A stretch of DNA of 64,000 nucleotides from Lepidurus packardi (taxonomy: Eukaryota; Arthropoda; Branchiopoda; Notostraca; Triopsidae). This document shows, piece by piece, positions 29,588 through 61,100 of the stretch. Both the position numbers and the translations under genes were made by a program. The stretch spans positions 9,072,565 through 9,136,564 of the forward strand of contig JAKZAN010000001.1 in assembly GCA_023053545.1 (NCBI GenBank), written 5' to 3'. The notes below the pieces were generated by a model. The model was not told the DNA's origin and searched no databases. It worked only from the letters and a program-made list of their open reading frames with translations. Each line of letters begins with the position of its first letter. Position 1 is the stretch's first letter.

Positions 29588-29696
29588 ACTTCACAACTAC
29601 AAAAATATTAGACTAAAGTCGCGAAATTTTTAAAACTTGCAATATTCAGCCGAAAAGGATACCTTGTATATATGCGCGTTTCTAAATATCTCAGTA
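29588..29696. repeat. 194-bp tandem repeat, copy 1, left part (split by the LTR element)
   Basis: Starts ACTTCACAACTACAAAAAT and runs to ...AAATATCTCAGTA. Its remaining 85 bp lie at 34426-34510, on the other side of the retrotransposon. 109 + 85 = 194 bp, the same as copy 2. Confidence 0.88.
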
Positions 29697-29920
29697 TGTG
29701 ATGGATCTAACTACACAGGTTTTGATTGCCGATGGATGCTTGTATTATGGATAATGCTCAGGTTAATTCACACGCTATGTTGGACTTCCTTTCTCCTTAG
29801 CTCTCTCTACTCGTTGTTGTTTATTCGCAATCCCCCTCCAAGGTCAGGTACCGCGATTGGCAATGTTGGTATCACTCAGGTACAAGGGTCATATTAAATA
29901 CTGAAACACAAGTCATTACA
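29697..29920 (-). repeat. 3' LTR of the Ty3/gypsy element
   Basis: 224 bp copy, apparently identical to the 5' LTR, following the polypurine tract on the minus strand. Confidence 0.93.
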
Positions 29921-34189: not shown

Positions 34190-34195
34190 GATTTA

Positions 34196-34419
34196 TGTGA
34201 TGGATCTAACTACACAGGTTTTGATTGCCGATGGATGCTTGTATTATGGATAATGCTCAGGTTAATTCACACGCTATGTTGGACTTCCTTTCTCCTTAGC
34301 TCTCTCTACTCGTTGTTGTTTATTCGCAATCCCCCTCCAAGGTCAGGTACCGCGATTGGCAATGTTGGTATCACTCAGGTACAAGGGTCATATTAAATAC
34401 TGAAACACAAGTCATTACA
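34196..34419 (-). repeat. 5' LTR of the Ty3/gypsy element
   Basis: 224 bp, TGTGATGG...GTCATTACA in plus orientation, with short inverted ends (TGTGATG/CATTACA). It is upstream of the minus-strand gag-pol frame, so it is the 5' LTR. Same sequence as 29697-29920. Confidence 0.93.
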
Positions 34420-36237: not shown

Positions 36238-39200
36238 TCATAAGGAATCCGGACTACCCAAGTTGCCGGAATGTAAATTCATGGAATGATGATCAGAATT
36301 ATGCAGCGCGCTATTGGAGTTCATTGATACACTGGGGGATGGGCTATCCGTGGCAGGGGATTTACTTCGGCCGTCCTCGTCTTTCCATTTATCCATTGAC
36401 CTAAGGTAAATAGACATCATTATTGAGTTTCAAGTGAGCTTTCCATGTCTCTTGTTGCATGAATTTAGGGAGGTTACCTTCGCCTGGCGTTCATAAAGAA
36501 GTTGCCCACGGTTGTGGGCTCTAATCCTAGTTGTTTGGCAATGGTTACTTGCATTTCCTTGGACGGCCGCTTCGTCTCCTACAAAAAGTAAAACACGTAC
36601 ATTTTACACTCACTGAAATTTTGATTTCCATCTTAAGCCCCGATAAATCAATGATTTTCAGTTGAAAAGTGCGCGTAAAGCCGTATGGCGTCAGTATTCC
36701 GCCACTCCAACTCATAACGAGTTGCTTAGTGTAACCCGAACTGCTCTACACTACACGGAGTATGGTACATGTGTGCATGAAAACAAGACTGTAATTCTAT
36801 GAAAAAGTGTCATTAAATTTATAGTCTCGAAAAGTGATACTTAGCAAGTGCACGCGAACCTGCTTCTAATTTTATTGCATGGCGAAGAAATCAACAGGGA
36901 TATTTCTGGTTCATCCTTTGAAATATGACTGGTACGGTAAGTTGTTGCAAAAACATTTATTCTACTATATTTGAAGTTAAAATTGTGTCCAAGAAATGGC
37001 TTAAATCAACCCAAAAGTGTGTACATGAATGCTACGCATATCAGAGGGGTTTTTACTAGTACTTTTCCTAGGAAAAACTATTCGTTTTGAACCCCCTGAC
37101 CTCGGTTGTTAAAAAAGATTTTACAACTTTTAAGTAGAAAAATAAGATAGGTATAAAAAAGTTATGACGAATTTTTCACCCTTGGGTTCGCCTTCTTTAT
37201 ATCCTAGACTAGACTATCGAAACATGAATACACAAAAAGCTAGCGCGCGAAACCAAACCGCGCCAGATTTATATTATTCATTCTTAACTATTCGCTATTA
37301 GATGGCCTAGCAGTCTGTTTTTTCACGTACAGTGGATACCGTGTATTTCTTTCGCAATTTTAGAGTTTCGTTGGATTTTAGAGTACATTAGTGGAACTTG
37401 CGAGTCGAAGCAAATATAATTTAAATCTTCCACTGAAATCAGTACATTAATTTGAATTTGTACCTTAAAAATAGCCTGCAGTGTGCGCCGCTGCAAATCG
37501 GTGAAAACTAAACGCGGTTTCTTGGGGGCAGGGGCCGGTTCGCCAGTCGAAGTCTCTTCCTTGCGTTTGCAAGGCGCTAAAAAAGGCACATAGAAAATTC
37601 GAGGTCAAATTAGTTCACTTTTAGTACACATTTACTGAAAATTCTCTTATAAATGTAACTAATTCTCTTAAGTGCCAAGAGCAAAACTTTTACATCTTAC
37701 AGGAAGCTAATCCAAATAAGGGATTTATTTTTTTTTAAATAAATCGTTATATGGTTCACAGGGGATGATGGATGGCCAACTAAACAAGGTTTCCTTTCCT
37801 GGCACATGTTTCTTTCTCCTGAAAATTCCGGGGTGAGGTGGCAACCAGGCTGAAATTCTTGGAAGGTCTTTGGGGAGTTTAGGAAAGGAGGTTGACATAT
37901 GGAAATGAAAGCTCGTGTTTTCGGACACTGATTTCGTCCATTGTGCTTGTTCGACCCCGAGCAAGAACTTTTTCTTCTTATTTTAAACCCTCATCCCCCC
38001 AAAAAGTATAAGCAACAAAAAAGCTGTGGAGAAGATGGATGAGGAAAGGACACTTGCATTTATATAGGCAAAGACTTGTGGGGTTTTAGCGCCTCTATAT
38101 ACTCCCCAAGATGGATGTGGGAATCTACAGAAATCTCGGAGACAGGCAATCAAGACCTTTTCCACGCTCCCTGTCCACCCTATGGAAGACGTCTTGGGTC
38201 ATTTGGAGGCCTACTGTGAGCTAATTGGCATATCTTGTGTTAAAAAAAATGGTTTAAAGACAAACGTTTGGGAATTTCTGAGGGTAAAGACCAGCGCTAA
38301 AGAAGTTCGGAAGGAATGAGTGTTGCTGAAGGTGGGATATGTTTTTGCAGGGGAGTTAGTGAGTTACGTATGTTGGATCGGGAGTTTGTCGATTAATTGA
38401 TTAACTGATGAAATCTCATGTTCTTGACTATCGATTGATCGGAAATCGATAAAGTCGAATGACAAGGCTTCGCCTTGTGGCTCGTGATGGACTAGAATGT
38501 GAACTCGTCCTGAGCTGGGGTCATGCGAGGTCGCTTTTTTTTCCTTTTACGTGCAAGGGTAAAGGCGGGAAGTTATAATTGTTTGAATTTTTCTTGGAAT
38601 TTGTTCTTTTTTGTTGTATTTCAAAGAAAACTCACAAGGCAGTGGGCGTTGGAATTGAAGGTTTGCTAGTCCTGCTCATCCGACCTGATGCTGGACCTGA
38701 TGATGGCCCGGCCATTCTGCCCGTGCCCTTATGACCCTCTGCAAAAGGACAGAGAAAGAAACATAGACTCAGCGAGCATATTTTTGGGGGTGAGGATATT
38801 TTTTCTAATTTTTTTTCTTCTTATTGGGTGGAGGAGATGAGGTGGATTATGTGAGTGAGGATTTTAGAGGAAAAACAAAAACACAAGGATTTATGAAAAC
38901 AAATATATGGCGTCTTTTTGAGAAGTTTTATTGTCTATTTCACTACAAGATGGAAATGAAGTAGAATAGCTGAAACTTACAAATTTTGAAAATGTTTAAC
39001 TTTAAAGAAATCTGAGTTGTGGGTTGTTATGAGAAATTATAGATTTGAAAGGTGCTTACGCTGTTGCTGCTGTTGTTGTTGTTGTTGTTGTTGCTGGACG
39101 TCGCCCGCGTAGACTTGCTGTCCTCCCACTACATAAAGAAAAGAAGAAAAAAAATGAAAGAAATACACATATTAAGATATTTATAGACAGTAAACTCGAA

Positions 39201-42200
39201 ATTAAGTCAGGAATTATTGGGGCAAAATGACGTATTGTTAATTGTTAATGCTGTCATGTTTGGGTGGGATACATGTCTTATTTTATTGCTAAAAACCAAG
39301 GGGGAAATGGTAGTAATGTTTTTGGACCGACCGTTTTCCATTTTTTTTTAAGAAAGTGAACACACAGACTTAGTAAATGTGTGCATTGCAGGGAGAAAAT
39401 TACAGATGGTGTGGAGCAATAAACACTAGAGGCTCTGCGGTTAAATAGGCTTAGAAGGTATAATTTTTAATTGTTTTTAAATAGTTTTATCGGTCTATAA
39501 AATTATTAGAATAATATTACCTGATTAAGAAGCTTTCTACTAGAGAATAATGAGGTTTCGGAACGGAAACACATGACACGGGATCGAGTTTAATTTTTTT
39601 TTCTGGTCTTTTGGGGAATCTTTTGTGTGGTGAGGCGGGGGTAACAATACTTCGTTTTTGAGGTTTCCATGGCAACTTTGAAAGGCCGGTGGAAAAATTA
39701 GTCTAACGTAAAAGGATAGTAAAGTGGGGATAGGTGAAAAAAGGTGGGCTCATTAAGTGATCGCGATGCAAAAGCTCAGTGAAGAATGATAAATTACATA
39801 AAAAAATCAGTGAGACGTGCACATTTCTCTCGAATGTTCTATCGACAAAACCCCCGGGAACTGATATTCTCGTCCGATTTCACTAATAGGAGCGCAAAGT
39901 TCACTCTAAATGCTCCTATAAAACCCACCCACCCAACTCAGTCCCGAAAAACTTGACTGATATGAAAAGAAAGACCCCAAAAAATAAAAGGCCAGAAATT
40001 TCAACCAGAAATTTTGGCCTGACTTTAGGATTTCTTTTCCTGTGAACCAACTTTTTACAAAGGACAATTACCAAAACGTTGGATCATTGGGCTGTCACAT
40101 TATCCGAACATTCTTTCCTATATATGCGCCCTCAAAAATCCCAGCCTTTTCTACCCTTAAAATTTCGATTTTCCAATTATAAAAACTGCAAGTTATAAAA
40201 CTTTCAATTAAAAATTATACATTAAAGACTTATTTTCATTGCGATTGGCAATGGTTGAAAGTGAAACAGCCGCGTTAAGTAGCCAAAAAGAAGTATTGTT
40301 GTGGTAGAGCTTGGCGAAAGGAGGAATGTTATAGCGGTGTATATTGTTGGGGAGATTCCTAAGTGTAGCGCCATATATACGTGTACGAGCCATAAGGCGC
40401 AGGATGTGGAAGGGAAATGAAGCTATCACAAGATAAGTTGGGCAACAATGCGCTGTGGTGGGGCCAAACTTCTTCCCGAAGGGAAAATAAAAAAAAAATG
40501 AGTAACAAAGGAGAGAAGGGATTGGTTGATGTGTTTGGTGGGTTAGAATATGGAAGGGAGGTGGCAGATGATGAATTTTCGCACCTATATTTGTTATAGG
40601 GGCGGAGACGGGAAGCGCTCGCATCGAAATAAGTCTTGTTTTATTAAGAGAAAGAGTGTGGGTCTAAGCGTGAGGTTGAGGTGTATATTGCGAGCACTTA
40701 GTATGATTGGTGACGTTGTCGCTCGTGTTTTTACTGATGGCCTTTTTATCGGGCATAGTGATACAAGGGGGAAATGAGAAAAATCCAAGAGATTTTCCTT
40801 GGTCAATGCTTGGGGAAAATTTTCGTGGCTATCCTTGAAAGCTTGCAAATGCAGAAATCTTCCAACTGACTGTCTAAATAGAGCGATGCATGAAGACTTA
40901 GGACTTGCTGGCGGATTAGAAGCTATAAAGCGATTCGCGGGGGAATAATTGCAAGAATTCATTGTTGATAAACTTGGAAAAACGAGAGTAGAATTGAGTG
41001 TATTTTCATCATAATTACGTAAATAAGTTAAGACAGCGATTTAAGCAAGGTAGTTCCCCTCAAGTCTATTTTCCGGGAGCTTTTGAGGGTTTTCATGTCG
41101 TTTTCATGTCGTTGTCGCAAAGAATTTTCGTGCCTGGTCTGGTTGACGTTCAGTGTTTTGTTGGAATAAAAGTTTACTTGTTCTACAATAGCCGCGTTCG
41201 TTTTGACAAAAGTTTAAGTTGACTTAAAAGTCTACGCAAGACTTGCGCTTATAAGCGTTCGAGATGTGTAAGCTTCGGGCTTATAAGCGTTTTATTTAGC
41301 TAGTCAACTTAGAAATTGAAGCCGACTTCTAGTTTTGGTTTCAAGTCAGCAAGTCTATACCGAGTACTCATGTGCCCAGACTTAAACTTAACCCCGCCCC
41401 TTGCTTACTTATTTCCTTTGTTTATTACCCACATGACGAGGGACTGCGTACTTTTCATGAATACGCTAGTTTGAGTACATTTTAATTGGTTCTTTAATTA
41501 TTTTAATTGGCAATCAACGATTTTTTTCATCGAAATATTAAATATTGGGACAAGAGGCACGAGCGTAAGTAAGTTGCAAAAAAAACAATGGAAAAAATTA
41601 TCCAAAGCACATCTTCCTCAGTCACATCTTCAATTGTCAGGATAAGATTAAAAACTGATTCAAGAATGGAAGAAGTTTACTGCCCCACAGAACAAAACAA
41701 TAATTTACTATTGAAATCCATACTCGAAAAACGAACAATTCGTATATTGTTAATTTTTCGACAAGCACCGCCCTATGGGTGGAGCAAATGTAAACTTATG
41801 CTTATAACCGTTCGTTTGGGACTCAAGACTTCCCAAGTCGACTTCCGTAAACTTTCAAAGTTTGGACTAAAACGAACGCTTATAAGTGTAAATCAAGGAA
41901 ATTTGAGTAGTGTAATTTAAGCCGAACGTAACAAAACGAACGCGGCTTATGATTTGTGTTTGAACTGTTAAAGGTGTTCCAAATCGTACCGGGACCGGAC
42001 GCAAGATTATCAAACCCAAGCGCTATGTTATGGACTAAGAGATTTGAAATCACCGCTTGGAAGGTGACGCACACCTCGCAAGGGGGTGTGCGATCAAGGG
42101 GTCCATTACTTGCAAAGGGAAATTATCATTGTTGGAAAAAGCTTTTCATTGTTACAATGGATCTAGGAACTGTATTCCATGGTTGCAAATGGTGCTTTCA

Positions 42201-43153
42201 TTGTTGCGGTTAATAGTTTCGCAGTTTGCAGACGTTTATTTTTAGGTATGGTTTCCGAGTTTCATTGTTCGCAAGTTGATGTGCCATTCTCCCGGATATT
42301 CGCTCTTTGCATTGGCTAACAGAATAGTAATTTGCAACAACTGTTATGAAATTTCGATAGATAAATCCAGTCACAGTTCATATACATACTAAAACGGATA
42401 ATAATTTACCAAGTTATTGCACGTGAATAAACTAATAACAGTTATCTTTGCAGAGACTTTTTTCGAAAGCTTTTGCACGCGCATAAAACTGAAGCAGTAC
42501 TTATCCCATTTTTTTTGGCTAGATTACTAATAATGAAATCTGCTACCTAACGAGATTTGGGACGAATTTTGGGCTCCAGTAAGCCTGAAAAGCCGTCAGA
42601 AGTCTTTTCTTGCGTTCTCTTTTGAAAAGGACTTGGAAAAGGTAGATCGAGCTCAGAGAATCCGAGGTTCCAAGGGCCGAAAATTTCAAAAGGGTGAGTC
42701 CGAGTAGAGTAAAGAGATCTATTGAGTCTTTTCGGTCTGGAGTGTATCGAGGCCCATTCAAAGTTTGAGTTTTTCTAGGAGTCCTAGTCAGCAAAAATGA
42801 CCTCATTTGCCTATGCAAGTGGCAGCGGAGCAGCGGGTCAGTCTCCTCTTTTTTCTACATATTTTCTTTTTATAAAAAGCCCCCCCTCTCAAGGAAAAAA
42901 ACTGTCAGGCGTTGGTCAGAGCATATACATATGTATATGTAAGCCCAGCAACCGAGCTGAAAATAAGGCTACGAAAGAGATGAAAAAAAAGTAAGGGAAA
43001 AACGAGATGATTTCCATTCATCTTTTGCTTTGCTAGGGCGAAAAGTGGCTCTCGTTCCCTTCACACTCCTGTCGACTCCAGGCGTGACCTTTTCTCAGGT
43101 CAGTCTGTGCCAGTCCGTCTCGCGCCAAAGCTAATTTATCTCCATAATTTATT

Positions 43154-43184
<31 letters not shown>

Positions 43185-46100
43185 TTTTTTTATGGTTTGG
43201 CCCCTTCCCTGCCACTAGACTATTTATTTACGACCCTATCCGACACATTCGGAATATTTCTGCTAGTCTCAGCTCCTTTTTTTTTTTTATCAAATTTCCC
43301 TTTTCTAAGAAAAGCAAAATGTCTAAAAGAAGCTAATTCCAAGCTTTCTCCGTATCGACTTTCTCGAGGCACGTAGAGTTCGCAGAGTTCACGTTAACTT
43401 GATGTCCGTACCAAAAGTTGATTCGGAATAGCATAATTTAACTTTGTGCTGTGAAGAAATAAGAGCGAGGGGGAAGCAACGAGAGAAAAAAGGGTTATGG
43501 AAGTCTATAGGGGGAAGCACCGTTTTTATGGGTTTGTAGCGTGTAATATTTCTGTGCTCTTTTTTTGGGATCTAGGACGCCAGGTTGGGGGGGAGGAGGG
43601 GCAGAAGGTGAGGTTTTGAGTCAGGTTGGGTTGCCTTTGGGCGTGCCCTTTCTTTCGGTTAGGGTCCAGGAAAGGAGGGTAAATATTTCTGCTTAGTTGA
43701 GTGTCTTTTGATCGTATTTTAGTTTTGTAGCCACGCAATGAAAGACACAAACTTTTGGGCACCTTTTGGGTTGAAATGTCTGTCTGGTCAATGGTAGGAA
43801 TTAGTTTCAGAATTGAAAGCAATTCGGATATTACTGGCATGGGAAAGAAATGCAAATTGTGGATCGCTCGTTTCTCAGCCTTAATTTTAAATTTGGGGAA
43901 AAATAAGCCAACGCACTAAAACTGGCTCTAATTTGAATGGCAAATTCTGGATTGTGCATGTGACGTAATGCTTTATTCCGGCAACAGACTGATCAATTTA
44001 CGACCCTTTTTTATTCCTTTTTTTTTCTTCGGATGGGAAAAATTCAACATTTCTGTGCTCAGCGCATAAAAGAAAAAGAAAAGCCATAAAAATAGAAAAA
44101 GGAACAGGGTAGTCCTTCGTATTAGCGCGGTTTTACTTTCGTTTAGTTTTTATAGCGTTACTACGGCTAGAAAAAATAGGAAATATGGAAAATACGTCTA
44201 GTCGTCCTAACAAATTATTAAGCGGGCAAAAGTAGCAAAAGGAAGAAGCGTGACTCAGGTGAATAAAGTTTATAGGTATGAAAATTATTTTTTCCTCCAT
44301 TTTTATCTGGGGGTGGAAGGTGGGAGAGTCGTCTGGTAGCCCCTAATCCCTAATTGGCTATTGTTGCGGTTACAAGGTATAGTGTAACTGACCTAGTTGG
44401 ACTGTGACGAGCGCCTGGGGGGCATTTCTGGAGGAGACTCTACTCTGCCTGTTATTATTGTGGTAGCCTTGCTGCAGGGTTTTGGGTTCAGGGGTTCGAG
44501 GCGACAAGAAATGGCCATCGGAGCTGTCAGCAGTCCGACGCTGACATTGCTGATCTCCAGGAGCAATGTTTAAGGGTTGAAGCTTTTTGAAGGGGAGGGA
44601 AAAGACCCGTAAAGGGTTGGAGGCAAGGGAGGAAGGTATGGACGTGAGAACACTGAATTTGCTAAAAGCATCAGTTTCAGGATTTTATTTCAGGAGAGGA
44701 AACAAAGGCATAGGAGCTGTATTTTGTTTTACTGTATAGGACGGAAGGAAATAAGAATACTGCTAAAAATAAGAGTTTTACGGTCTTTACGATCAACTTA
44801 GCAAGCTTGGGAACGGCTATAAGGCAGTCTTGGGATTTTCTTTTCTTTCCAAGCGAGTCGTAAAGACTATTTGTTTGGGCCAAACCAAGCTGGCAAAGGT
44901 CCGAGCCCTGAGTTTTCTTTTTTTGTGTGACTAATCTATGCATTATTTTATATGATAACAAGACCATTGGGGAATAAAAGTGAGTAATTTTTGGAGATAG
45001 GAGAAGTATACGTGCGTCAATGTAGATACATTTTTTATTCACTTGAAAGTAAAAGTTAACACAACTAAGCTTTCTGCAGGAATATGTCCGATTTTAATGC
45101 CAGAAGTGCAAGACTTTTAAGGCCACGGTGTATTGCAAGTAGTTGATAATTTTTGTCAAAAGATGGCACTGATGTCATACCATTTCTCATTGTCATTTCA
45201 TAAGCTTCAAACAAGAAATTAAAATAAACATAAAGAGATAATTGAAAATGTTTTTTTAAATAAATATTTGAGTAATAATTCTTACTAATCTATGTGTGTA
45301 CCATTTTAATATATGATTTACTTAAAGTTTTCACAACTAGGAAGACAATATAAAAGTTTTTACGAAAAAATATATTAGAAAAGATGCACTTATTTTAAAA
45401 GACTTCTGTATCCCATGGATTGTTGTCAGAATACAATTTTATTCTATTGCAAAGAGTTAAACCAAAATTTACCATCCTGAAGCGCCAAGCGGGATTCCAG
45501 TACATTGTGGCCTTAAAAGTAGCCAAAAAAATTGTGATTTTTTAAAGCTTTTAACATATTATTACAAAAAGAAGTAAACTGTGTGAAAAACTCAATAGAA
45601 TGACACCTCATGTTGTGTTCTTACTTGAGTATTAGTCGAGATAGGAGGGCAGTAAATCTGCATCTCAAAACGCCCAGGGGACAGTAGGGACTCCGCCCCC
45701 ATCAGCGCCTGAGGCTACATAAAAAGTTCGCTCCCGATTATGTCGCAGAAAGAGGGGGCGAAATCTTTGTTCATCCGGAAAGCAACTCAGACTATTCTTA
45801 GAATATTTAGATTTTGTCGGCACTCCCTTCTCCCAAAAAAGTAAAAGAAATATGTTACTCTTTGGAGAGTGTGTTAGCTATAGAGTTATACAGTAACTGA
45901 TGTTGATTTTGTATGAGTTTGATTACGCAATTTCGATCTGCCCTGCCTGAACGAAAACAGCAAAGGGTTCTGAAAGATCCTTTCTTACTGGGCAACTGAA
46001 GAGATGGCCAGACGTTTTTCTTCCAGTTAAAGGATTAGCAAAAGCAAAGCTATTGGAACTTGGTGGTCTCCCCGTCTCTTTTTAGGGGAAGATTTCAGGT

Positions 46101-49100
46101 TGTGTTCGCGGACATTCTTGTCGTTGTCGTCTTTTCAGCTCCGGATTCTGAAAACGGGGTGGAGGTTAGGAGTTAATTTTGATACTAAAGCAGAAATGCT
46201 CGGGCTAACATAGAGGCAGGTCTATTGTGTTCCTGTGGAACTCCCGTCATCCCTGTTGTAATTGGGAGGAGAGGAGGGCAAGGCTGGAGGTTTTAGTAAT
46301 CATAGGGCTGACAGCAGAGTCAAGCCAAGCCAAAGGCCTTCTCTCTTTCTCCCTTTGAGTTGCTGGCTGCTTATATTTATATATATATACGACTTCCCCA
46401 CAGCAAAAGGTGGAATTCGGGTCGTGGGGGGTATACCCGGATGATGCCTATTGTCGACATGGCAATGAGACCACGACTTTTCATCTAGCATTTCGCCACA
46501 TTACTGCTGCAGAAAGGGAGAGAAAGGCTTTCATCAACCTCTGCTAGTCAGTCAGCCAAACCATTTGGGCAACTATTTTTCCTTTTGTTAGACTTTTTTT
46601 CATTAAAAATTCAACCTGGGGAAGAAATATTTTTATCCTTTTTTGCAGAAATATACAGATATATTTCTGCCGTCTGGCACAATTCTGACTTATATAAGCG
46701 TTTTTTCTTATTTTTTTACTTTTCGGAGATAAGACAGCTAGTCCAACGCGATCATGCATAAAGGACAAGATAACGTTCGTATTAGGGTGAAGGGTGGGAC
46801 GGGGTAGATGTGCTAAATGAAAAATCGGAAGTAATGCCAAGTTTGATAGCGATAAAAAATGTATTGCTTCGCATTTGGCTTCTGTTCCCTTCTTAGTTTC
46901 CCTCTCCTCACCCCCCGAAAATTGTTTAGGCATATAACCCGAAGTCTGAAGACGTTGACACCCGCGCTATTCTGGTTTGGGATCGTGCGTCCGTCTTGCC
47001 CGGGTTGGCCCCAGAGGGCGCGGCATATCTCGATATCTCTAAAAGTATAGGCCTCAGACAACTGGCTTTAAATATTTAGTACGTATGGAGTCTTCCGAAG
47101 CTGAACATGTAGTGTAAGAAACGGTTTTACTATTATTTTCTTTTTTAACATATATTTCTTCTCTTAGAAAAGTACGCGCTTTTTTACGTTTAGTTATAAG
47201 GGGTAACGGGGCGTAAGGGCTTTGGAAGAAAGTAAGACCTGGATCGCGCTGTTAAAACAAACTTCTAAAAAGGACCTAGGTCATTAAGCGTTTACTGGTT
47301 TTTAATTGCCACAGGTAGGTTATTAGTCTCGTAAAAGATTCGCACCTCTCCATCCTAGTTAGAATGGAAGCACCAGTGTTTAGCTGGGTTTTGCGGAGGA
47401 GAGGGGAGGAGATCATTATAGTAAGCGACGTAGAAAATTGGAGCCCATAATCAGCTTGAATTCGTTAGGTTTGGGGTTAATGTCAAAGAAAACGGTTTGA
47501 TTCGGGAACACAACCCCCACAGAAGTATAAAATGGGTTAAGCTGTCCCTTCACTACCCCAGTTTTGCTAGAATATTAAAAAGTACGTGTTTTTTTGTTGC
47601 TGTTTTGGCTGGGGTGTGGAGGGGAAAGAGTTTCATTTCTCAGCCATCAAATCTGGTTTATTAAAACACGCGCACGGGTGAGCCATAACTTTAGTTTAAA
47701 AAGCAAACACGTTTCGCTTTGAAGATTTTTCAATTGCTCGTTAATTCAAGAGATCGAGCTATTTGTGTTTATGGATCGTTTCAGCCTCCCCATGGATCCC
47801 TTTAAAATAAAGAAATAGATTAAGAACGACTAGCCTCGCTTTGAACCAACCCAGCATATAGTTAGTAAAAACCACAGTGGGTAAAACCTCTATACTGCGG
47901 TACAAAACAAAAACAAGTTCCTACAACGTCTTGTTCAAAATTGTTAGGTCTAGCAATGACACAGCAAGTGAAGGAAACCGGAAAGGTGCCCGGGGCTATA
48001 AGGATCTCTTATCCTTCGCGCCCGCAGGCAAAGGGATTCACCCCTCATGCAACCTTTAACTACAATTATTTCATGAACGGTTTGTCGTACAAATATGCAG
48101 TTAAAAGCAGTTATACGTGGCAATATTGCTTCAAGTTTTGTGCGCATTTTTTTTTTTAATTATTATTACGTGTAAATTACTTGAACGATAGAAATGGTAG
48201 GGAACTAACTTCCACTTTGGGAGGTTGTTGTAAAAGAATGTAAGGTACTTGGCGTCTGTACACAGCGTCACTCTCAATAACCCGGCATCTCTTGCGTTCG
48301 TTTGTTCTTGGGCAGCAAAGGCAAATGCCAGAACTCTTCAAGCTTTAATAACATAAAAGTAGGGGTGCATTGATGCTGCCAAGCACATAAAGTGGCTTGT
48401 CTTGTAATTTTTTCTTGCTGCACTGCACTGAATTATCTATATCTGCAGTCAGTCACTTCTGTTTTGGCTCCAAAATGCCAGAAAACGCTTCTTGTGGGTC
48501 TCTAACGAGCAAGTGTGCTATGGTTATTCCCTCGCGCTCACACCCTCATCACGTGCCAAGTTTGTCGCCCTCGCGGCAGCCCTCTCCCTCATTTGCTACC
48601 CCTCTTTGGCTCCCGGGGCCCGGACGGTCGCACACGCTGTATGCAACAACGCTGGGAACTCACACACTTGACGCCCTACTTCTGCCCGAGGGCTCCAACT
48701 CGGCACCCAGCTGCACCTATTGCACCCAAACTCCTCCAGCAACCACCCCTGTGCCTCTTCTTTTTAATAAGCCAGTTTGGCTAAATAGCTTTGGCTTGGG
48801 GTAAAGGCAGAAATTAGTCTTGATATGCATATTCAACGTCTAAAGGTTTCTGGGAACTGGAGTTTTTCTTTATTTTTTCCTTTTTTAGGAGATTATTATT
48901 GCTTTGTATGGAAAAGAGAAGACAAATAGTGCTTTGGAAAGACTTTGTGTGGTGTCAAAAGAAAGGAAATGAAAAAGAAAACAAGAGCGTGGACCTTGTA
49001 CCCTGACAAAAGAAAATCGGAACCAACTGGGGCTTTTTGTTAGCGTATAAAAGTCGACTCCTGTCGCCCAATTTTTCTTAGCTCCAAATGTAGCTACATG

Positions 49101-52100
49101 AAAGTATAACCAGGGCATTTTTCTGTTAGTAATGGTTCCTATAGAAGACTGATACAGGCTAAAGTTTACAAAAAAAGTTTTTCTCACATCCCAGTTTCGT
49201 CTAATAAAAGTAGAAACAGGAATTTTCTTAAAAACCGAGTCCGACGACACCTCAACTACTTCCTCGGACGACTACTAGCCGAGATACGACTGAAACAAAT
49301 CTAAGTCCCGGGACACTAGGTCACGGGACACTATGACACTTCTGGTCAAAAAACTTTTTTTGACCAGAGAACCACATGCCGCGTTTGTTAATATGGAAAT
49401 CAGTAACGCACATGTACACAGTGAGAAGATTACTTACCAGCAAAATTGTCAAGAGGGATGAGACTCAAATTTGGCCTAATGAAAAGACACAGCTATGAAG
49501 GAGGTTTCGAAACAGAATAGTTTTCATCTGCTGCTGCCAGCTTCATAGTTTTTCGAGTGGCCATTCTTGTGGCCCCCCTCTTCCCTATGTAGGCAATAAA
49601 CCTGGAGTTCTTTTTATCTGCTCTTCATTCTTTTTCATTAATATGGGAGGAGCAACGGGTCCTCTGCTTTTCCCGCTGTCCTTCAGGGACCACGGAGGCA
49701 AAAAAGGCTTGAAAAACAAAACGAAGCAGGCCTTTTTGTGTCCTACACCATCCAAGACGGAAGAAGAGCCAATATGAGGGAAAGGAATCAAAGCAAAATG
49801 CCTACTTGGCATCAAGGGCTGCTGCACCGTATACTTTTTATGGGAGAAAAGGGTGAGAGTGAAGGAAGGTGAGGGTGAAGGAGGGGAGAGGGGTAACAAA
49901 GCAAACAAATTTTTGGTCGCTTTTTTATTTTACAGTCATTGCAAAATGCTAATACCCACGCTCCTGTTTAATTAACAGCTTCTTAGACCCATCCTCACCC
50001 TGCACAATTTCGGAATGGATTCTATTTCTATTGTGTGGAAAATGATTTCTGAAAAGAGATACCTGGGATTTGGGTGATGCTGCGTATTTGATTCTTGACG
50101 TTTGTTCCATTGGATTAAAAAAAATTATATAAAAAGACGAAGGTTGCATTGTTGTTGGTGTTTTGGGAGAAACGCGTCGAAAAAATAAAAAAGAAGTTAA
50201 GCAAAAGGAAGATGAAGGAAAATAGAAAAGCTGCGTGTATGTCTATGTGTGTGTGTGTGGCGATATGTGCTCATATAGAATTTATTAGTGGCATAGCTCG
50301 TTTTTCCCATTTCCTTCAGACTGGCACGTTAACGACAAATGACAATCGAAGCAGAGCAATAAGCAGCACAGAAACTCGCTCGAGGGTAATATATAAAAAA
50401 TATCCAGGTGTCTGTCGGGTATGTAGCGGAGGGCTAAGAGCTAAAGAGTTGCATCATAGCCCCACAGACCCAATTTAGGGAGACCTTTTGCTTTTTTATT
50501 TATTTTTTGTTGCGCTTTTTCGTCTTCTTTTTTTGTGCGGAAAAGTGCTGATGGAAAAAACTGTATTGTTCTGTGATATGGAAACAGTATATCGGATTTA
50601 GCAGCTTATTAAGCCCATAAGTATGTTGAGTCTATTTTAATGACTTTTTTCGTCTGTTTCCTTTTTGTTGTTTTCTAAAAGAAGTTTCACCAGATTTTCT
50701 CTAAAAGTATTTGTTTTTTAAATATTACTTATATTGTAAGTACTTTATTACTTTTAGGGAGGTAGTTCCCTAAGCAATACTTTAATTAACATTCTAATTT
50801 GAGTGAATGGATCATACTGGAAGTTTATTACTGCAGAACTATCTTGACTTACTCAATACTCTTGACTTGACTTACTTCCGTATATACTACGTATTGTATC
50901 ATTTGTTTAGGGATATAAATTTCGGTAGTATTGTTGACAGCGCCAGTTTGGAATGGCTATTGGTAGTAGTTTTTTACATGTAAACTTTTGTTCTAAGACT
51001 ACGAGTATTAACTATCGGCAGTTCTTGAATGTAACTGAGAGCATATTACTCTGGCTATGTACAGTACCAAAGGTATACGAGTTAAGTCCAGGGATTTCCC
51101 GCTTCTAGTATGTGTGGTACGGAAAAAATATAAATGGAGAGAAAACCCATCTTGATTTTTTTTCTCATTCAAGTGTTATGAAGCAATGCTACACCCCCAC
51201 TAGGCTGTTCTGACAAGCATGTTCAGCAAGATTTTTACATTCGGAATGATTTTTTGTCGGCTCAGAAGAATCAGCAAGTAACTATAGCCTCCCGATAGAG
51301 CACGTTATTTCTTTTTCTTCCTTGATGCTTCGACATTTCGACTGCTCAGGTCGGGCTGGAGTATGGGTTAGAAAGGCGTCAAGTTGCTAACCACCAGAAA
51401 AGTGGCCTTCGCCTTGGTTTTCCTTTCCATCCGACCTGCTTTAGGGCTATGGAAGGTTCTTGTCTTGCAGAAATGTAAAAGAAAACAGACGTGGTAGCCT
51501 TTATTTTAGTTTTTATTTCTTTCTTTTACCCTCTGGTAGAAAGGGGGCGTGGCTTATAGCGTAAGCTCGTAATAGCTTTTCAGCTTTTGAGATCGGAGAT
51601 CCCAACAAGGGAAAAAAGGACGGTTATTGAAGAAAGAGGAGTTGCGAAGGACGAGAGGATCCCAGGGAAAGACAGTTCGAAGTAGAAATAGAAGAACCCG
51701 AAGAAAGAATCCAAATCACTAAGTCTGTTGTTAGCTTTACTTCTGTGTGTATGATGGCTGCTGTGGCTCGGGGGTTTAGTTGTTGACTTATCTTTTGTGC
51801 TCTGTGCCAGCCTGCATCCTCTATAGCAGCTTTGATGACGTCTTCATCATCTCCATCTACGTGCTGTCCAAGCAACTTTTCTCAGGCTTACAAAAAAGAT
51901 TAGCAAGGCAAGAGACCACACCAAGAATTTTCTGAACAGATTCTATAGGGCCAGTTTTTCGAGAAAAAAACCAAGACAACCAAGCGCTATAGGGGCAGAA
52001 ATAGACAGAAATAAAAATAAAATGCTAGGACACGGAGGAATGAGTGTCAAGTAGTACTGAAAGCAAGGGAGGCAGGACGTAGAGGGGGTGAAGGGATTTT

Positions 52101-55100
52101 CGAGTACGTGTATAAGGGTACAAGATGGGATAGAAGGAAGATAATAATACTAAACTCAAATATTTCTGTTTGCTTCTCCCTCGCAGAAGTGTTTAACCAC
52201 GTCTCGTATATTTTTCCCTCGTTTTCTATTTTTCAAGTCATTATATACCGGGCAGTAATTCCAAGTTTTAATTTAGGAGATAATGAATTTAATTAACTTA
52301 GTGTTAGTCACACTTTGGGCACAAGTTTCTGCGATTCAGTTTATTTTTCAAACTTAATGACACAAATTCAGTTTATTTTTCAAACTTAATGACACGATCT
52401 ACTTGAACCCCTTATGGCGCTACAGCATGCAGCAAATTCTGATTCCAAAATTATAATTCTATGTGCATTATAATGCAATTGTACTGTGACAGTAACCCAT
52501 GGGAGGTAATGCATCTAGTGAAAGGTCTGCGTCTCTCTTAACATCATTTCCGTACATTTTTTACATATTGTTCCAAGTTTTGACAATTTTCCATAAATCA
52601 TATATCAAGATAAATCGCAGACGGTTCTCTAGGTTTAATTATTAAGATATTTAAGAAGTAAGTTTAAATTATCTCTTTCTGTTTTAGCTAATTTTAAGTT
52701 TTCCGTTTACGAAATAATGATAAGGAATTGCATATAGTACAGGATATATGGGGCCTGTCATCAGTGCCATCTATCGACCAAAATTATCAACTATTTGCAG
52801 TATATGGTGGCCTTAAGTTCCGTAGTAATTCTTTAAAGAGGTTTAGTTAGTGTGACGGCGAAGTTGTGCCGTCAAAATCGGCTGCAAGTTGTATGAGTGA
52901 TGGCACTGACTGTAAGAAGAGGTGGGTGTTAACTATGGAATAATATGGAAAATTGAGTTGAATGTGGAAGAATATTGGGGGAGTGTGAGAGCTTTCGGGG
53001 AAGAAGTTAGCTTACGTCTTATTATATGTTAACTTATGCTTATTTTCTGTTAAAGGAAGCGCAGGATAAATCTGTTTTGTTTGGAGTTTGTCGTTTGATA
53101 GACAATCGCTTAAGTCGTGAAAGTTTTACTACTCCATGCGCCAAAAAACCACAGCTGCTGCCACATTAAGGGACTCATTAAGAAACCATATGTGAAAGGA
53201 AAAGACAACAGCTACAAAAAAAAGGTCCTTAAGGGCAGCCAGGACTATGCTGTAAAATATTACTGAGTTAAGTGTAGTTTTTTAGGGATAGGAGGGTGGG
53301 GCAAACACTACGGAATTTCGCTTGACGTTGGTTTGGTTTGAGGTGTGCTGCAGGGTAGGAGAGACCTGATAAGGCGAGTCTAAAGAGCTGGCATAAGGAG
53401 GTCAGATCGGTCGTCTCGCAGTAATGTAAAGCAAACAGTGTAGCCCAAGAAAAGCTGTCCTCTATATGCTTGCCTTAGGGATGATTTGGGGGGGAGGGAG
53501 GGGAATCGTTGACGTAGAACCATCTTCCAGGAGGGTGGGATAGGCGATGTAATATTTCCCTAGCACAGTGTGACGAACTCAAACTTTGCACAAGGAATGA
53601 AATTGTCTTTGAAGTAACACCAGTTTGTCCCCAGGTCGTTTCGAAGAAACCCCTTAAACGGGAGTTAGGCTATCCAGAAGGCCGTAACCAGCGGAAAGTG
53701 TGACGTCTGACGGGACTCAAAGCGCTACTCCATGCCTCGTTTGCTTGTCAGTTCAAAAGCTAGTTACACAACAAGTCATAAAGGTTTCGAAAAGCGAAGG
53801 CTGGGAGGGTTCTGGCTGGCCGACATTCCTTGGGCTACTCCCGCCTATCCTTTGTAGCTCAAAAGCGAACGGATAGGAACCCGTTGAAAAGTACGCCTGG
53901 CCGGGGCTCATAGCATTGGTCCGGGTTGCCATTACTTCGTTCGGTTACTATTTTGTTTTGACACTTGTCAAGAACGAAAAGGAGTACGGAGCTTTATTGT
54001 AGACGTTGAAAACATTTTCATTTGTGAAATTGTAAAAGTGGTAAAATTGCTTTAAAAAGAACCATGGTTGGTTCTCGACTTTTGAGAAAGAACGCTAAAA
54101 GAGCGTTTCCCAGTAAAAGAAGAAATTTATAAGTGAAGTGGTAGAACTTTGAGAAATTTTTTAGGGCCGGGGACCTGGCTCTTTAGCTTTTATTGGTACA
54201 AGGAAAAAGAAGAAAGGAAGAGAACACCTGGATAGGGAAGGTGTGAAAATGAACGTAGACTGTACGTGTGAGGGGCCGAGGCTGGCTTAGGTGGGTTGGG
54301 TGACCACTGCGAAGCTCTTGGAGCTGCGTTTTGACGGTTGCTATGACAACTTTTGGGTCAACTGTACCATCACAGGGGACTCTTGGAGACCTGCGCCAGG
54401 CACGAGGGCAACCGCCGAACGAGCCTCAACTTGATATATTAACATAAGTTACAGTCGAATTACGAAATAACTCTCGCATATTTATCCTCTTAACCCAAGA
54501 AGTGATAAATTAGCGGCCTGAATGGCCAAGTGGTGCATGTTTCTGCCTCAAGAGGCTGCTGCACTATTTTGGCATAAAAGGGTTTCGAAAAATAAATATA
54601 CATAGGAATAGAAAAACTGCGGAAACAAACCTAAAAGTCCTGTGACCACAGCATAGGGAACATACAAGTTAAGTTTAAGCTTGAGTTAGGGGGAGGAGAA
54701 GGGGATGATAAAAGGTGAGCAGAGGCTCATTTGGCGTCCTGAGCGATGCCATTATCAGCGTCGTTAGGGAAATTTATGTCGTTCTTTCCCCTTAGTTGGT
54801 AGATCATATTTTTTTTTCTTTGGAAAAAATTTAATATGGAAGGAATCTCCCCGCTTGCTTTAAGAAAATTTTGTAAGGTGCAAAGCGAAAAAAAAAGTTT
54901 GGAGTTGAGGTCTTTTACTTAATGGCGTAGCTTTGCTCTCACGTAATTAGCATGGGTTTTTGTGAGGGTGCCATTTTCTATCTTGTCAGTTTTTTGTGCC
55001 TTTATGACCAGATTTCTTACATAGGAGGGTTACTTAGAGGGGTGGTAGAAAAGACACGAGTCAATATGGTGTTTTCCAAGGTGTCACACACAAAAGGCCC

Positions 55101-58100
55101 AAGTTTCTTAAACTTAGACAAGAATTCCTTCAGTTTAACCTAACTGTAGCAGTTAGTTTAAAAAAAGAGCAAGTTTGAAACGTCTCCAAGTTTTTCGCCT
55201 TAGTAAAGAAAGGGAAGTTGAAACGTTTCTTTCCACGTCATTAGAGAAAAAAGCTTGTATTTTTTTAAGGGATATAAAGTATGCAAATGAATGCTAATGT
55301 TCGGGACAACTGATGTGAATTTAGGCAGGGGGTTGGGGTGGGATGGAAAGAGGACAGGAAGGTGGTAAAGTTTAAGTATTAGGAATAGTGAAAAAAGTGG
55401 GGGCTGTTGAGGTCGTAAAAAGCAGATTAGAAGAGGTGCTCTTATTATAGAAGCAACATAGAAGCATATAGGAGTCTAGCGGAAGAGAAAAGAGGGGGGA
55501 GAATGGAGAAATATGCGTGGTATATAATATTGTGTATTTCTGTGTCTTTTTTACCCCCACAGGGAAAGATTCAACGCTTTGATACGTTTTTACTATATCG
55601 CTGATGACATGAATCTAGAGCATGTGGACGCCACATTAGGACAAATAAGGTACGCTAGATGTAGTCTTTCTACTTCAACTGCCAAATGGATTCGGGTGTG
55701 TATGTGTGTGGAGCAATATGTGCCCGCTTTCGCGCTCAAGGGTGGATTATGATCATCTCCGTCATGTTTTCATAAAGACTTTAGTGATTGGCATTGGTCA
55801 TGCGAATCTTCGGAGAATTATTACACCCCTTCTACAAAAACTTCGCCGGGGAGATTTAATTACAGGTGTACCTTTCAAAGATATTAAGGCGTTAGGGTGG
55901 GTCCGAAACTTCGAGGTCATGTATTACTTGACTTCTAGAAATCCATTGTTGTAGTCCAGCTGCAACATGATTGCAGTTGAATGCGAAAACTATGCTTACT
56001 ACAACACGATTTCAGAGTTGATCGTTGCAACTGATTGTTAGGCCTTTTCAGTTCCGTTGCTCAACCTTTCTTTGTTTATTGTTAGAATTCAGTGTTCAAA
56101 GTTGCCATGCGTTTTCGCAATTTACTGTTGCAATTTAATTGAACTTATTATTAAACCTTCCATAATTCAGTGTTGCTATTAACTGCTACTATTCTTTGTT
56201 ATAATTCATGTAATGTACGTTGTTAGGCCTCGTGTTCATTGTTGTAACTTGTTAAGGGCCCTCTGAAAGGAATTGTAGAAATTGTACCCTCGTTGTTGGA
56301 AATGGTTGTTGAAAATGGACCTAAGACTTAGATGTCCATTGTCAGGCCAGCTTAAATTTGAAATACTATATGACAGTTGTAACAGATTTGGCCAGAATTC
56401 CTAAATCAAGGTTGTCCTTCTAGTTCTCCGGCTGAAAAGGGGATATGATTCTAAAAATCAAAGCTACGATGTACTATACATAGAGCATTCTGACGTAAAT
56501 AAAGCCGATTTGAAAGTCTCTGCACGAGAAACACGTGAAAAATAATCTTTGTACCATAGTAGATGCCGCTTATTGTGATCACGTTTGTCAAGTGAATATT
56601 GATTCTATTAAGCAGAGATTCTAACAACTGAAAATCGGAAATATGCAATAGAATACAACAGTTAATCGATGCGTGAAATCACGAATATGTGCCTACAGTT
56701 TAGATTTAATGCACACATTATTGTTTATTTTGTAACGATTTTCAACAATTTTGATAGATGATTGAGGAATTCCTAATTTCACGGCCGCTTCCCTGTGTGG
56801 CAAATCTTTTAAATTTGAATTGTCATAAGTTTCAATGAGTCGCAACTCATCTTTTACATTTAATCAAACTCACTTCTTGTTCGTCCATTTTTGTATAACC
56901 ACATGTCTAAAACACAAGTAATACTGCGCCTTTGAAGCCTGCTCCTACGCCTAGGTAGGTTTGTCAACACGATATTCCTTCTAATTTTCCCGGTCCATTA
57001 AAGGAACTGGTCATCCAATTGCCTTCTCATTTAATTGACTGGGGAGTTTAGAAGGAATTTCCCACTAAAAGCAGTAGTAAGCTGAAAATGACAGGATTAG
57101 TCAAAACGACGTATAACAATGTCATTGGTCAATTTGCAAAGTCTATGTAGCAATCACTACTGTAGTTTCGTAACTGTACATGTGACAATTCTTTTGTAAG
57201 TGATTCTGATATCCAAAAGTTTGATACTAATAACCGATTAAAATTTTATCCCATGAAAGCGGTTAATTCTAATAATCAGTGATCACAATTAGCGTCATAT
57301 AATATATAAGGATGCACAGCCCACGTTATAATTAGAATAGAGAAAGTATGGGTGCAATCATTCTTGAGTCTCTCGGATGTATTCCGGACAGGACGGTGTC
57401 TGGAATTTGGGAGAGGTCGCTGAGACCAAGCAGTGGTTAGTGGGACCGCTAGGACGAAGGGTCCTAGCTAAACCCTTCAAATCCCCCGAACAATGTAGAG
57501 GGCGTAAATGGGAAGCAAATTTTTCTTTTCATTTTTGTAGTTTTCTTATAATGGAAAGTAAGTTTATATGACTTGGGTTGGTTGTGATGGATGGACTAGC
57601 TGTATAAGACAAAACAGACTTAACGAAAGATATGACAGAGCCTTCCACAGGCAAACGCCATTGTTTTATGATGTTGTTTACACCAAACTTTACAAGTTTG
57701 GGTGAAGGAGGTGGCTAAGAATTAGAGGGTTTTGGGGTGAAGCCTGTTGTTGCTTGCTTTGGGCTCCCTCTAGGAGGCCAAATCTAATGACGAACCAAAC
57801 TCCAAACTTTCTGTCATCGAGTGTTATTCGACAAAACTACTACTACGCTCCTTTTCACTTTAGCCCGTTCTCTCAAATCGTGGTCACTTTACACGTCTTT
57901 TTTGCAGTATTGGAAAGCTCTAAATCACTTTGGAGGAGAAGAGGATGAAAAGGGCTAAAAAAAAGTACAGAAGTTTGTTGTTTACGCCAGCTGTGTAAGT
58001 TTACGCCTCCCCTGATCTTGGAAAATACATTTTTGAGACGCTCGATTGTGAAAAATAGCAAGTCAAACTTCTCCTTCCTAGGATAGGGGGGTAGGAGATG

Positions 58101-61100
58101 GTTCTGAAGCCGATACTTTAGCGCAGTAATTTTGGGGGGCATCTACAGAAGCTTGGAAATGTGTTAAACAGAAATATAGTGGGACATAATTTCGGAAGCA
58201 TTGGAGAGGAGCGGAATAGCAAAGCCTTAGGTTAAGCCTTGTTCAGATTAGACTTTCGCCAGCTGGGCCCTGGATTTCTCTCTCTTACAGAATTCCTCTC
58301 AGGCTACGGCTGGGCTCATCCATTACTGGTTCTTTATAGCTATATCTACGGTTATACCTGCAAGCTCTTACTATAGCTAGAGGCCTCGTTGAACTTTTTT
58401 TTTTATCAAAGTCGCTGTGTCTTGGTTGTAATCCGTAACAAAAGACCATCATCATTACCACTGGGGGACTATAGGACCTTCGGATCGCTCTCATAGATAA
58501 ATAGCTTAGAAAGTTTGATGGGTATATATAGGTCAGTTGTGAATTGTTATACGGTGCATTTTATATATGTGTGCTCCTTAGGGGGTCCCGAAAGGCTTGC
58601 CCAAAGGAAAGAAAGCGGCAAGTCGATTTTATGTCTTGCAGCGCGTCCTGACACCCGGGTGAGATTGTCACCTTGTCCTCTTATAAACTATTTAGATTTA
58701 TATACTACTTGGGTTTACTACCTGAGTTGATCGCGGCCCAAAATTAGTCATTATCTACCAAGAATTGTCTGCAGTTCAAATTCGGGACAGTAGGCCCATA
58801 AATTACCGGTTTATCCGTTGCCGATAGTCCCAGTACCTCGAAGTAATGACCCCTACCCCTTTCTTACCTGGTTGTCAGCTTCCTCTTAACTGTTTCTACC
58901 TGCTTTTTGTTCGAAATATTAATACAAGCTTCAAATTGTCATAGGGTTGACTGTTTTACTGGTACTATTATCAACTGACCTTTCTTACCATCAAATCCAG
59001 CTTGCCTTATAGCAGAACTGTTTCGAAAGAATGGCAGAAATTCCTAGTCAGTCAAATAAACATGGGTGGATTATCTCGATTTTCTCTTAATCTTTATACC
59101 GATTTCTACTCAGAAAGTGTTTTAGATGTGGGGAGTAGTAAGTCCGCAGAAGTTTTCGAGTACGCGGCAGAATCACCGTAGGTTATTCTTATTTCACCCG
59201 TAATTCCACTGCAGGCTTACTTGCATTGGGAAGTACTAGTTAATTTAGCAAGAAATTTAAGGGCCGTTCCATAGAAGTAGGATTGCCAGTCTTTTCTCTC
59301 ATCCATATAAATGACAAGCTCACGTGAGAAAAATTGTTGCCTTTTTTTGTAGGCAAGGGCAAAAAACTTAATTTGTGCTATCCCGCAGAAATATAGCATG
59401 TTTGGTCGGGGTTACGTAATTTCAGTCCACTAGCGTGGCTCTTGGACAAGGTCTTGCCGTTACGGGATCACAAGCCTCGACTCAAGTCCGGGTTGTCTGT
59501 CGACTGTAGCTAATGAGGCTCTTGCCAGGCTCCTCGCATGAGTCGCCACGGAAGAAAATTGATCTTAACGTGACAAAAACGTCTTGTACGCCTTACATCA
59601 TGCCCAAGTTTTTTCTTAACTCATACCTTTTTTAAAAGAAAAGTCCAAACCTCGACCAAAAATAAGAAAAGAACTTCCTAAGGATTTAGGCTTTGCATGA
59701 TTAATAATCTAAATAGTTGGCATTGTTAATTACTGGCAGAGTAATTTGATTAGCAGGATGCTTGGGTCCCCCGTTTTGAAAAGTTTTGTATGAAAGGGGT
59801 TTATAAATGCTTCTAGCAAAACGGAGTTGAAAGAAATCCCGGAGAGGGAAGTAGAAATAGGACTCGCGCTATGCGAATTAGAACTGTTGCCTGGGTAACC
59901 TTCCCAGGTTTGGGGTTCCATATTTATACTGAACTTTCCAAACTTTCATTTCTCGACATGCGCCAGTTTTTATATTTATTATTATTTTTTAATGTCAGGG
60001 CTTCCTCACATAAGGGAAACTCATTAGACTTATTATGATCAATTCACAGTAATAATTCCGTCTATTGGTCATCGCTGGTAAATGGCGTGGGATTCCATTG
60101 GATCTTTTAAATTTGAAGGGACTGGAATCCAGCTGCTAGGGATTGACATTTCCAATTTTAAGTTGGGAAATTGACCGCGGGAGTATTGGAAGAAAGTATT
60201 GGTCTAAAATGAGGAACCAACAGAAAAACAGTAGAGGGTTCGGGGGTTGTGGGGCTGAAAATGTGTGGAAAGGCTTACCTGCCAATCTGAGGGCGGACAT
60301 CCGTTGAAATTCAGGTTCTTGGAGCCATTTCCACATACGGCGGAAGGTTTCCCTTCCGGACTTGAGCTTGGACCAGGGCTTAGGATTGCGTAGGAGATCC
60401 GACAAAGTGCCTTGTGATCGGCATAAAACGCGTTGGGCGAAAATAGCTTGAGGAATGCTGTACCGTTTCAATTCGGCGCTAATCCGCTGAGCCAGTTCCT
60501 TGGTGTTAATCTCCTCGCCGTCGTTCGTCGCCCCGGAGCTGGAATGCCCGCCATGGGACCCCGTCGAGGAGGTGGAGGAGACGGGAGAAGGCTTGGTGGT
60601 CGCCGTCGATTGGGACAAGACGCCTGGTGTTCCGCCCGCGGAAACGGTAGTAAGGAGGCCGCCGGAGGGGTGATTGTGTTGTAAGAGGTGATGGTGCTGG
60701 TGATGGTGTGGAGGGGTTCCGCAGTGTTGTTGTTGCTGATGTTGCTGGTGTAAATGGCCGCTCAGGTTGAGGGTGGACATGTTATTCATGGAGGTGGATA
60801 AGGACACCATCATTTCGCGGGTCATCGCCGGGACCGAATCGGGTGGCGACGGCGGGGACGCGGATAATAGGTCCCGGCCGCTGCCCATCGGATCGGTGGG
60901 TGAAACCGTATGAGGAGAAACGGCGTGCGGACTGAGAGGACCTAAACCATTAAGCGAGCTGAGGACCCCGCCGGTCGAACTTAAGGAGGCGACGACATTG
61001 TAGCCTGAGACCAGACTGTGATGCGAGGGAGGAGAATGGAGAGACCCAGATTGCGGACTTAAGTTGGGACTTTGGGGTTGGATCAGGCAGCCGTTGTTGG

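Follow-up and report, generated by a model that had tools for sequence, protein, structure and literature searches.

Candidate linker exons in the long intron of Lepidurus packardi onecut, and a possible splice-dependent loss of the homeodomain

The onecut gene of Lepidurus packardi (Notostraca) is interrupted by an intron of 22.7 kb between the exon carrying its CUT domain (E1) and the first exon of its homeodomain (HD1), which raises the question of whether this intron contains exons capable of changing the spacer between both domains, or the presence of the homeodomain itself. In mammals, the spacer between CUT and homeodomain distinguishes the alpha and beta isoforms of HNF6. The gene lies on the minus strand of the window, i.e., the whole 64,000-nt stretch analysed here (GCA_023053545.1, contig JAKZAN010000001.1, positions 9,072,565-9,136,564), for which a first-pass annotation had proposed long-spacer isoforms made by three exons spread across the intron (X1, X2 and X3). 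The reading we favour, with a little better than even confidence, is a different one: the intron would contain two linker exons, X3 and an additional one named X4, clustered in its last 1.6 kb, and the use of X4 through its outer donor would drop the homeodomain. This reading is drawn from the frames, phases, stops and score ranks of the candidates, from the likeness of X3 to a linker of Artemia, and from the reading of HD1 in two frames in the models of other arthropods.

The gene is composed of four coding exons in the window, all of them on the minus strand:

E1: 60279..62958, minus strand, starting at the first ATG of its open frame and ending at the donor CAG/gtaagc, with the CUT domain inside (Pfam), leaving one base (G)
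HD1: 37464..37576, minus strand, first homeodomain exon, whose second reading frame stops at TAA 37467-37465
HD2: 36478..36578, minus strand, second homeodomain exon, 101 nt
HD3: 36238..36400, minus strand, last coding exon, ending at the stop TGA

Additional non-coding exons may lie upstream of E1. The product of E1, X3 and the homeodomain exons displays the onecut architecture, with a CUT domain (119.8 bits) followed by a Homeodomain (46.2 bits), both above the Pfam cut-offs. For the region of the gene used as query, the closest protein among the matches listed was the Artemia franciscana onecut, with 51% identity over 98% of the query. Four CUT matches were found in the 108.6-Mb genome, one corresponding to the onecut locus and three clustered on another contig; the latter are three CUT-domain exons near each other (C5:7488979-7500341), which probably constitute a cut/Cux gene. 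According to a review of CUT genes that also treats CUX isoforms, onecut is broadly neural, and Drosophila has a single such gene (PMC10515288).

Candidate exons were defined as phase-1-open AG..GT stretches of 30-250 nt in the 22.7-kb intron, with the opposite strand as control; the gene strand gave 296 of them and the control strand 407. Splice scores were obtained with a generic splice-site matrix, which ranks the candidates and is not calibrated. Matrices trained on 20 stretches of 10 kb from the host genome and on 26 kb of the window were also built. The first one was dropped, having drifted into coding sequence and placed the HD1-HD3 acceptors at percentile 0; the second recovered 323 intron-like pairs vs 273 in reversed sequence, and 201 vs 106 once retrained, and is too impure for reliance. 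The sums given by this second matrix, of doubtful quality, were 14.5 for X3, 14.5 for X4, 8.5 for X1 and 6.3 for X2. The candidates in the last part of the intron are the following:

X3: 39060..39128, minus strand, 69 nt, probably a real exon, encoding the linker VGGQQVYAGDV plus a glutamine run; splice rank 5 of 296
X4, outer donor CTT/gtgagt: 38636..38738, minus strand, 103 nt, possible exon, open from E1 or X3; splice rank 1 of 296
X4, inner donor CAG/gtcgga: 38685..38738, minus strand, 54 nt, homeodomain in frame and linker longer by 18 codons; splice rank 2 of 296

X3, whose peptide is VGGQQVYAGDVQQ, is probably a genuine linker exon. In the Artemia franciscana onecut (P0091), VGGQQ stands right after LRLA and QQVYHQEIQ further on; likewise, X3 starts with VGGQQ after CUT/LRLA and contains QQVY, after which both have an acidic residue, an aliphatic one and then Q, although the Artemia linker has 12 extra residues between the two common pieces. 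With the glutamine runs masked, X3 was the best of the 296 candidates against this linker (27.5, the next candidate reaching 20.0), and it was the only one to start with VGG among the 703 candidates of both strands. Its local score was attained by 0.26% of 5000 X3 shuffles. Its codon score, which the glutamine run inflates, was equalled in 0.2% of 488 null stretches. The X3-X4 stretch is single-copy in the genome, the glutamine run apart. Retrieved proteins served for a broader comparison; these were 180, non-arthropods included, and represent the best rows of longer lists. Their spacers before the CKRKE motif had at least 10 residues in 81 proteins, 2-9 in 36 and 0-1 in 14, while in 29 the homeodomain was present without this motif; linkers of at least 10 residues were available from 125 of the 180 and constituted the linker comparison set. 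Models from the same species with different linker lengths were found in Homalodisca (P0005/P0033), Onthophagus (P0055/P0067), Panulirus (P0080/P0084) and Euwallacea fornicatus (P0018/P0020/P0037). A longer CUT-homeodomain linker via X3 is thus supported, because the Artemia onecut linker is similar and because same-species database models vary in linker length. Among the matches listed, Artemia franciscana has one onecut model, which gives no evidence of alternative use of its linker exon; therefore, X3 may be constitutive rather than alternative. As for the HNF6 isoforms, the resemblance lies in the spacer, X3 fitting in frame as read from genomic sequence alone.

X4 was left out of the reasoning of the first-pass annotation, even though the span it reported started at 38636, the last base of X4; homeodomain loss was overlooked with it as an outcome, and X4 is the more surprising possibility of this locus. 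Its splice sum (18.8) is the top of the 296 candidates and is reached by none of the 407 of the control strand, and its GC content stands at the 98.7th percentile. When X4 is joined through its outer donor to E1 or X3, HD1 is read in its second frame (...PQETAFSFHRFAAAHTAGYF) and the TAA falls one base before the HD1 end; as deduced from the sequence, the product would keep the CUT domain, lose the homeodomain and end in ..YF. A version of X4 starting from the next AG (38736) was ruled out, being closed from E1 by a stop.

A product of this kind has counterparts among the protein models of other arthropods. A protein search with tail pieces gave 7 proteins at E <= 1, three of them being the source of the query, and all 7 contain CUT, have no homeodomain match and end in ..YF. 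These CUT-only models belong to Ischnura (odonate), Rhodnius (bug), Cotesia (wasp), Cylas, Euwallacea and Diorhabda (beetles), and Eriocheir (crab). In the four species for which both forms were available (Rhodnius, Eriocheir, Cotesia and Euwallacea), the homeodomain-bearing and CUT-only models come from contigs of equal length, and one DNA can encode the HD1 peptide as well as the CUT-only tail (4/4 species, 6/6 model pairs), and none of 20,000 shuffled Rhodnius tails was compatible with such dual reading. The Ischnura tail fitted one of 133 HD1 peptides, from another odonate; those of Cylas and Diorhabda, whose same-species form was not among the 133, fitted none in full, and the conserved HD1 core was fitted by all 7 tails. 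Just upstream of the second-frame HD1, five insect models display the peptide DCQ[MT]RNVNVR.VN.KRRK, which is diverged in Rhodnius and of which Eriocheir has the start only. CUT is not followed by a homeodomain in 20 of the 180 retrieved proteins; 13 of the 20 have an end other than ..YF, some of them resembling intron read-through or partial models.

What X4 shares with these models is its effect on the phase ahead of HD1: as read from the sequence, HD1 would be shifted into the frame with the ..YF stop and the homeodomain would be lost. Conversely, their exon peptide is absent from X4. As X4 lacks the conserved insect exon peptide, it was not classed as the same exon, and its proposal as a homologue of the insect exon was rejected for want of likeness; sequence searches found no stretch similar to DCQ[MT]RNVNVR.VN.KRRK elsewhere in the intron. 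If spliced, X4 would nevertheless act like the insect frame-shifting exon.

The two remaining candidates of the first-pass annotation are located farther from HD1:

X1: 51741..51880, minus strand, 140 nt, most likely not an exon; splice rank 167 of 296, acceptor AG preceded by G
X2: 44393..44582, minus strand, 190 nt, most likely not a onecut exon; splice rank 14 of 350 in phase 0, requiring X1 for its phase

The coordinates and phases given for X1, X2 and X3 were all exact: the three are open, preceded by AG, followed by GT and phase-matched, and together they add 399 nt, or 133 codons, leaving the homeodomain in frame, as X3 does by itself. It is very improbable, in our estimation, that they form a real chain with a 133-codon spacer. 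With members scoring at least as high as X1, the gene strand admits 303,140 phase-matched three-exon chains and the control strand 729,153, and phase match alone is no evidence for exons. X1 has a poor acceptor, and either X1 or X2 placed alone between E1 and HD1 loses the homeodomain frame, X2 thus being dependent on X1. Both splice no better than control-strand candidates, X1 being equalled or exceeded by 230 of 407 and X2 by 22 of 433 in phase 0, and neither matched the 125 retrieved linkers beyond its shuffles (fractions of 0.10 and 0.065 of 200). On the side of the chain, apart from its fitting phases, X2 has a GC content at the 98.7th percentile, a codon score above 20/20 null stretches and a synonymous score above 18/20. 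X1 and X2 are present in one genome copy each, by which their being repeats was ruled out. Of the long-spacer isoforms once proposed, the linker via X3 is retained by its likeness to Artemia, while the X1-X2-X3 insert is at chance level; the annotation was probably right on X3 as a linker exon and probably wrong on X1 and X2.

Several observations weigh against the two-exon reading, and they feed the alternatives to it. In the case of X4, two control-strand sums (18.6 and 18.4) come near its 18.8, its codon score was matched by 8.7% of 172 null stretches and its synonymous score by 67%, and it is unlike the insect exon peptide, ranking 13th or lower of 114 length-class candidates. When synonymous codons were drawn at random with the E1 codon usage, the second frame of HD1 was open in 22.3% of cases and stopped exactly at the HD1 end in 14.8%; therefore, the frame alone proves little here. 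The inner donor, in turn, would preserve the homeodomain. In the case of X3, the best control-strand score in the comparison with the Artemia linker was 25.0, splice scores at least equal to that of X3 were obtained for 14 of 407 control-strand candidates, and 16% of 200 X3 shuffles matched its best score across the 125 linkers. The donors of both exons fell below the 10th percentile in the retrained genome matrix, whose quality is doubtful. Should X3 be the only real exon, perhaps always included, X4 would be a chance splice-like stretch; this we consider rather unlikely, yet worth serious attention, given the neighbouring control-strand sums, the weak codon signal of X4, and its having no sequence relatives among the protein matches listed and the linkers compared. 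It is countered by the first rank and high GC content of X4, and by the exon of the same phase effect at this intron position in other arthropods. That no candidate is spliced, and E1 is joined straight to HD1, seems quite improbable: direct joining gives a normal onecut with 1018 residues, and linkers of the direct type, with 0-1 residue before CKRKE, are seen in 14 of the 180 retrieved proteins, but the resemblance between X3 and the Artemia linker speaks against it.

X4 might instead be a poison exon, its inclusion leading to destruction of the mRNA, so that a CUT-only protein would be immaterial. In mammals, a stop far enough upstream of the last exon junction leads to mRNA decay, and the second-frame stop in HD1, located 102 nt before the last junction, would mark this mRNA for decay under that distance rule; the decay rules of arthropods, however, differ from those of mammals. 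Non-triplet splicing with decay is known in C. elegans and human (PMC13247117). Against the poison exon, the insect exon preceding HD1 shows conservation of its peptide, as expected for a translated exon, although conserved poison exons exist too (PMC11357089). On balance, we regard the poison exon as unlikely.

Returning to the favoured reading, we infer that X3 and X4 are spliced in L. packardi, with the following consequences. Inclusion of X3 would keep the frame and give a longer, probably more flexible linker, which may alter the coupling of CUT and homeodomain. Inclusion of X4 via its inner donor would add 18 residues and nothing else, while via the outer donor HD1 would be read in its second frame up to the TAA one base before its end, generating a CUT-only product. 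The choice of splice sites could thereby set DNA grip by both domains against that by CUT alone, the CUT-only product being a weak binder or modulator, or else, were the frame-shifted mRNA degraded, reduce onecut output. In ONECUT2 assays, the intact protein bound at 7 nM, CUT alone at 2030 nM, and CUT plus the homeodomain in trans at 1380 nM, i.e., CUT alone was ~290-fold weaker than the intact protein and the homeodomain in trans hardly improved it; the linker was not visible and was judged flexible (PMC11490551). Since the CUT domain of ONECUT2 binds this weakly by itself, removal of the homeodomain or a change of linker by splicing should alter what onecut binds.

Other systems offer partial parallels. 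MEIS1 is a homeobox gene with isoforms devoid of its homeodomain, though it is another gene (PMC3157405, PMC13379096). Non-triplet splicing, in which an exon length that is not a multiple of three leads to a shared sequence being read in two frames, has decay-sensitive, C-terminal and dual-coding outcomes; it was described in C. elegans and human, and the text does not mention onecut (PMC13247117). Among the open-licence PMC papers listed, the titles and abstract starts provided no description of arthropod linker isoforms or of CUT-only onecut. The absence of an arthropod onecut description, as previously claimed, thus holds for the literature searched, but protein databases already contain automated isoform models of such kind. 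Pattern searches of viral and genome contig collections gave 15 and 100 matches and confirmed no onecut relative, near relatives possibly not being included in them. No Daphnia protein was present among the best 120 of 1320, the best 120 of 364 or the tail-piece matches, by which its absence is not shown.

Regarding the surroundings of the gene, a gypsy-like LTR (long terminal repeat) retrotransposon with a single long open frame of 1354 codons lies directly downstream of onecut (30032-34096, minus strand); it is flanked by similar stretches near 29696-29920 and 34195-34419, its family was assigned by eye, and it is seemingly nested within an older repeat. At 26316-27566 (plus strand), a 416-codon open frame has repeats rich in tyrosine, serine and proline (SYGAPAS), possibly encoding a structural or secreted protein. 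An Rfam scan of the window gave 0 matches at gathering score. In the host genome, a COX1 search gave 41 matches: many interrupted fragments on the large contigs C1, C2, C4, C5, C6, C21 and C38 are probably nuclear copies of mitochondrial DNA, and three uninterrupted matches, on the small contigs C52, C214 and C43, are possibly of bacterial origin.

Taken together, we tentatively propose, well short of even confidence, that onecut of insects and crustaceans holds an old switch formed by a frame-shifting intron exon and a two-frame HD1, by which a single gene would produce the complete factor as well as a CUT-only one. In L. packardi, X4 would play this part with an unrelated peptide, and its two donors would decide whether the linker is lengthened or the homeodomain lost. 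If odonates, bugs, wasps, beetles and a crab do read a homeodomain exon in two frames, this highly conserved domain would provide a case, open to testing, of dual coding maintained over a long time.

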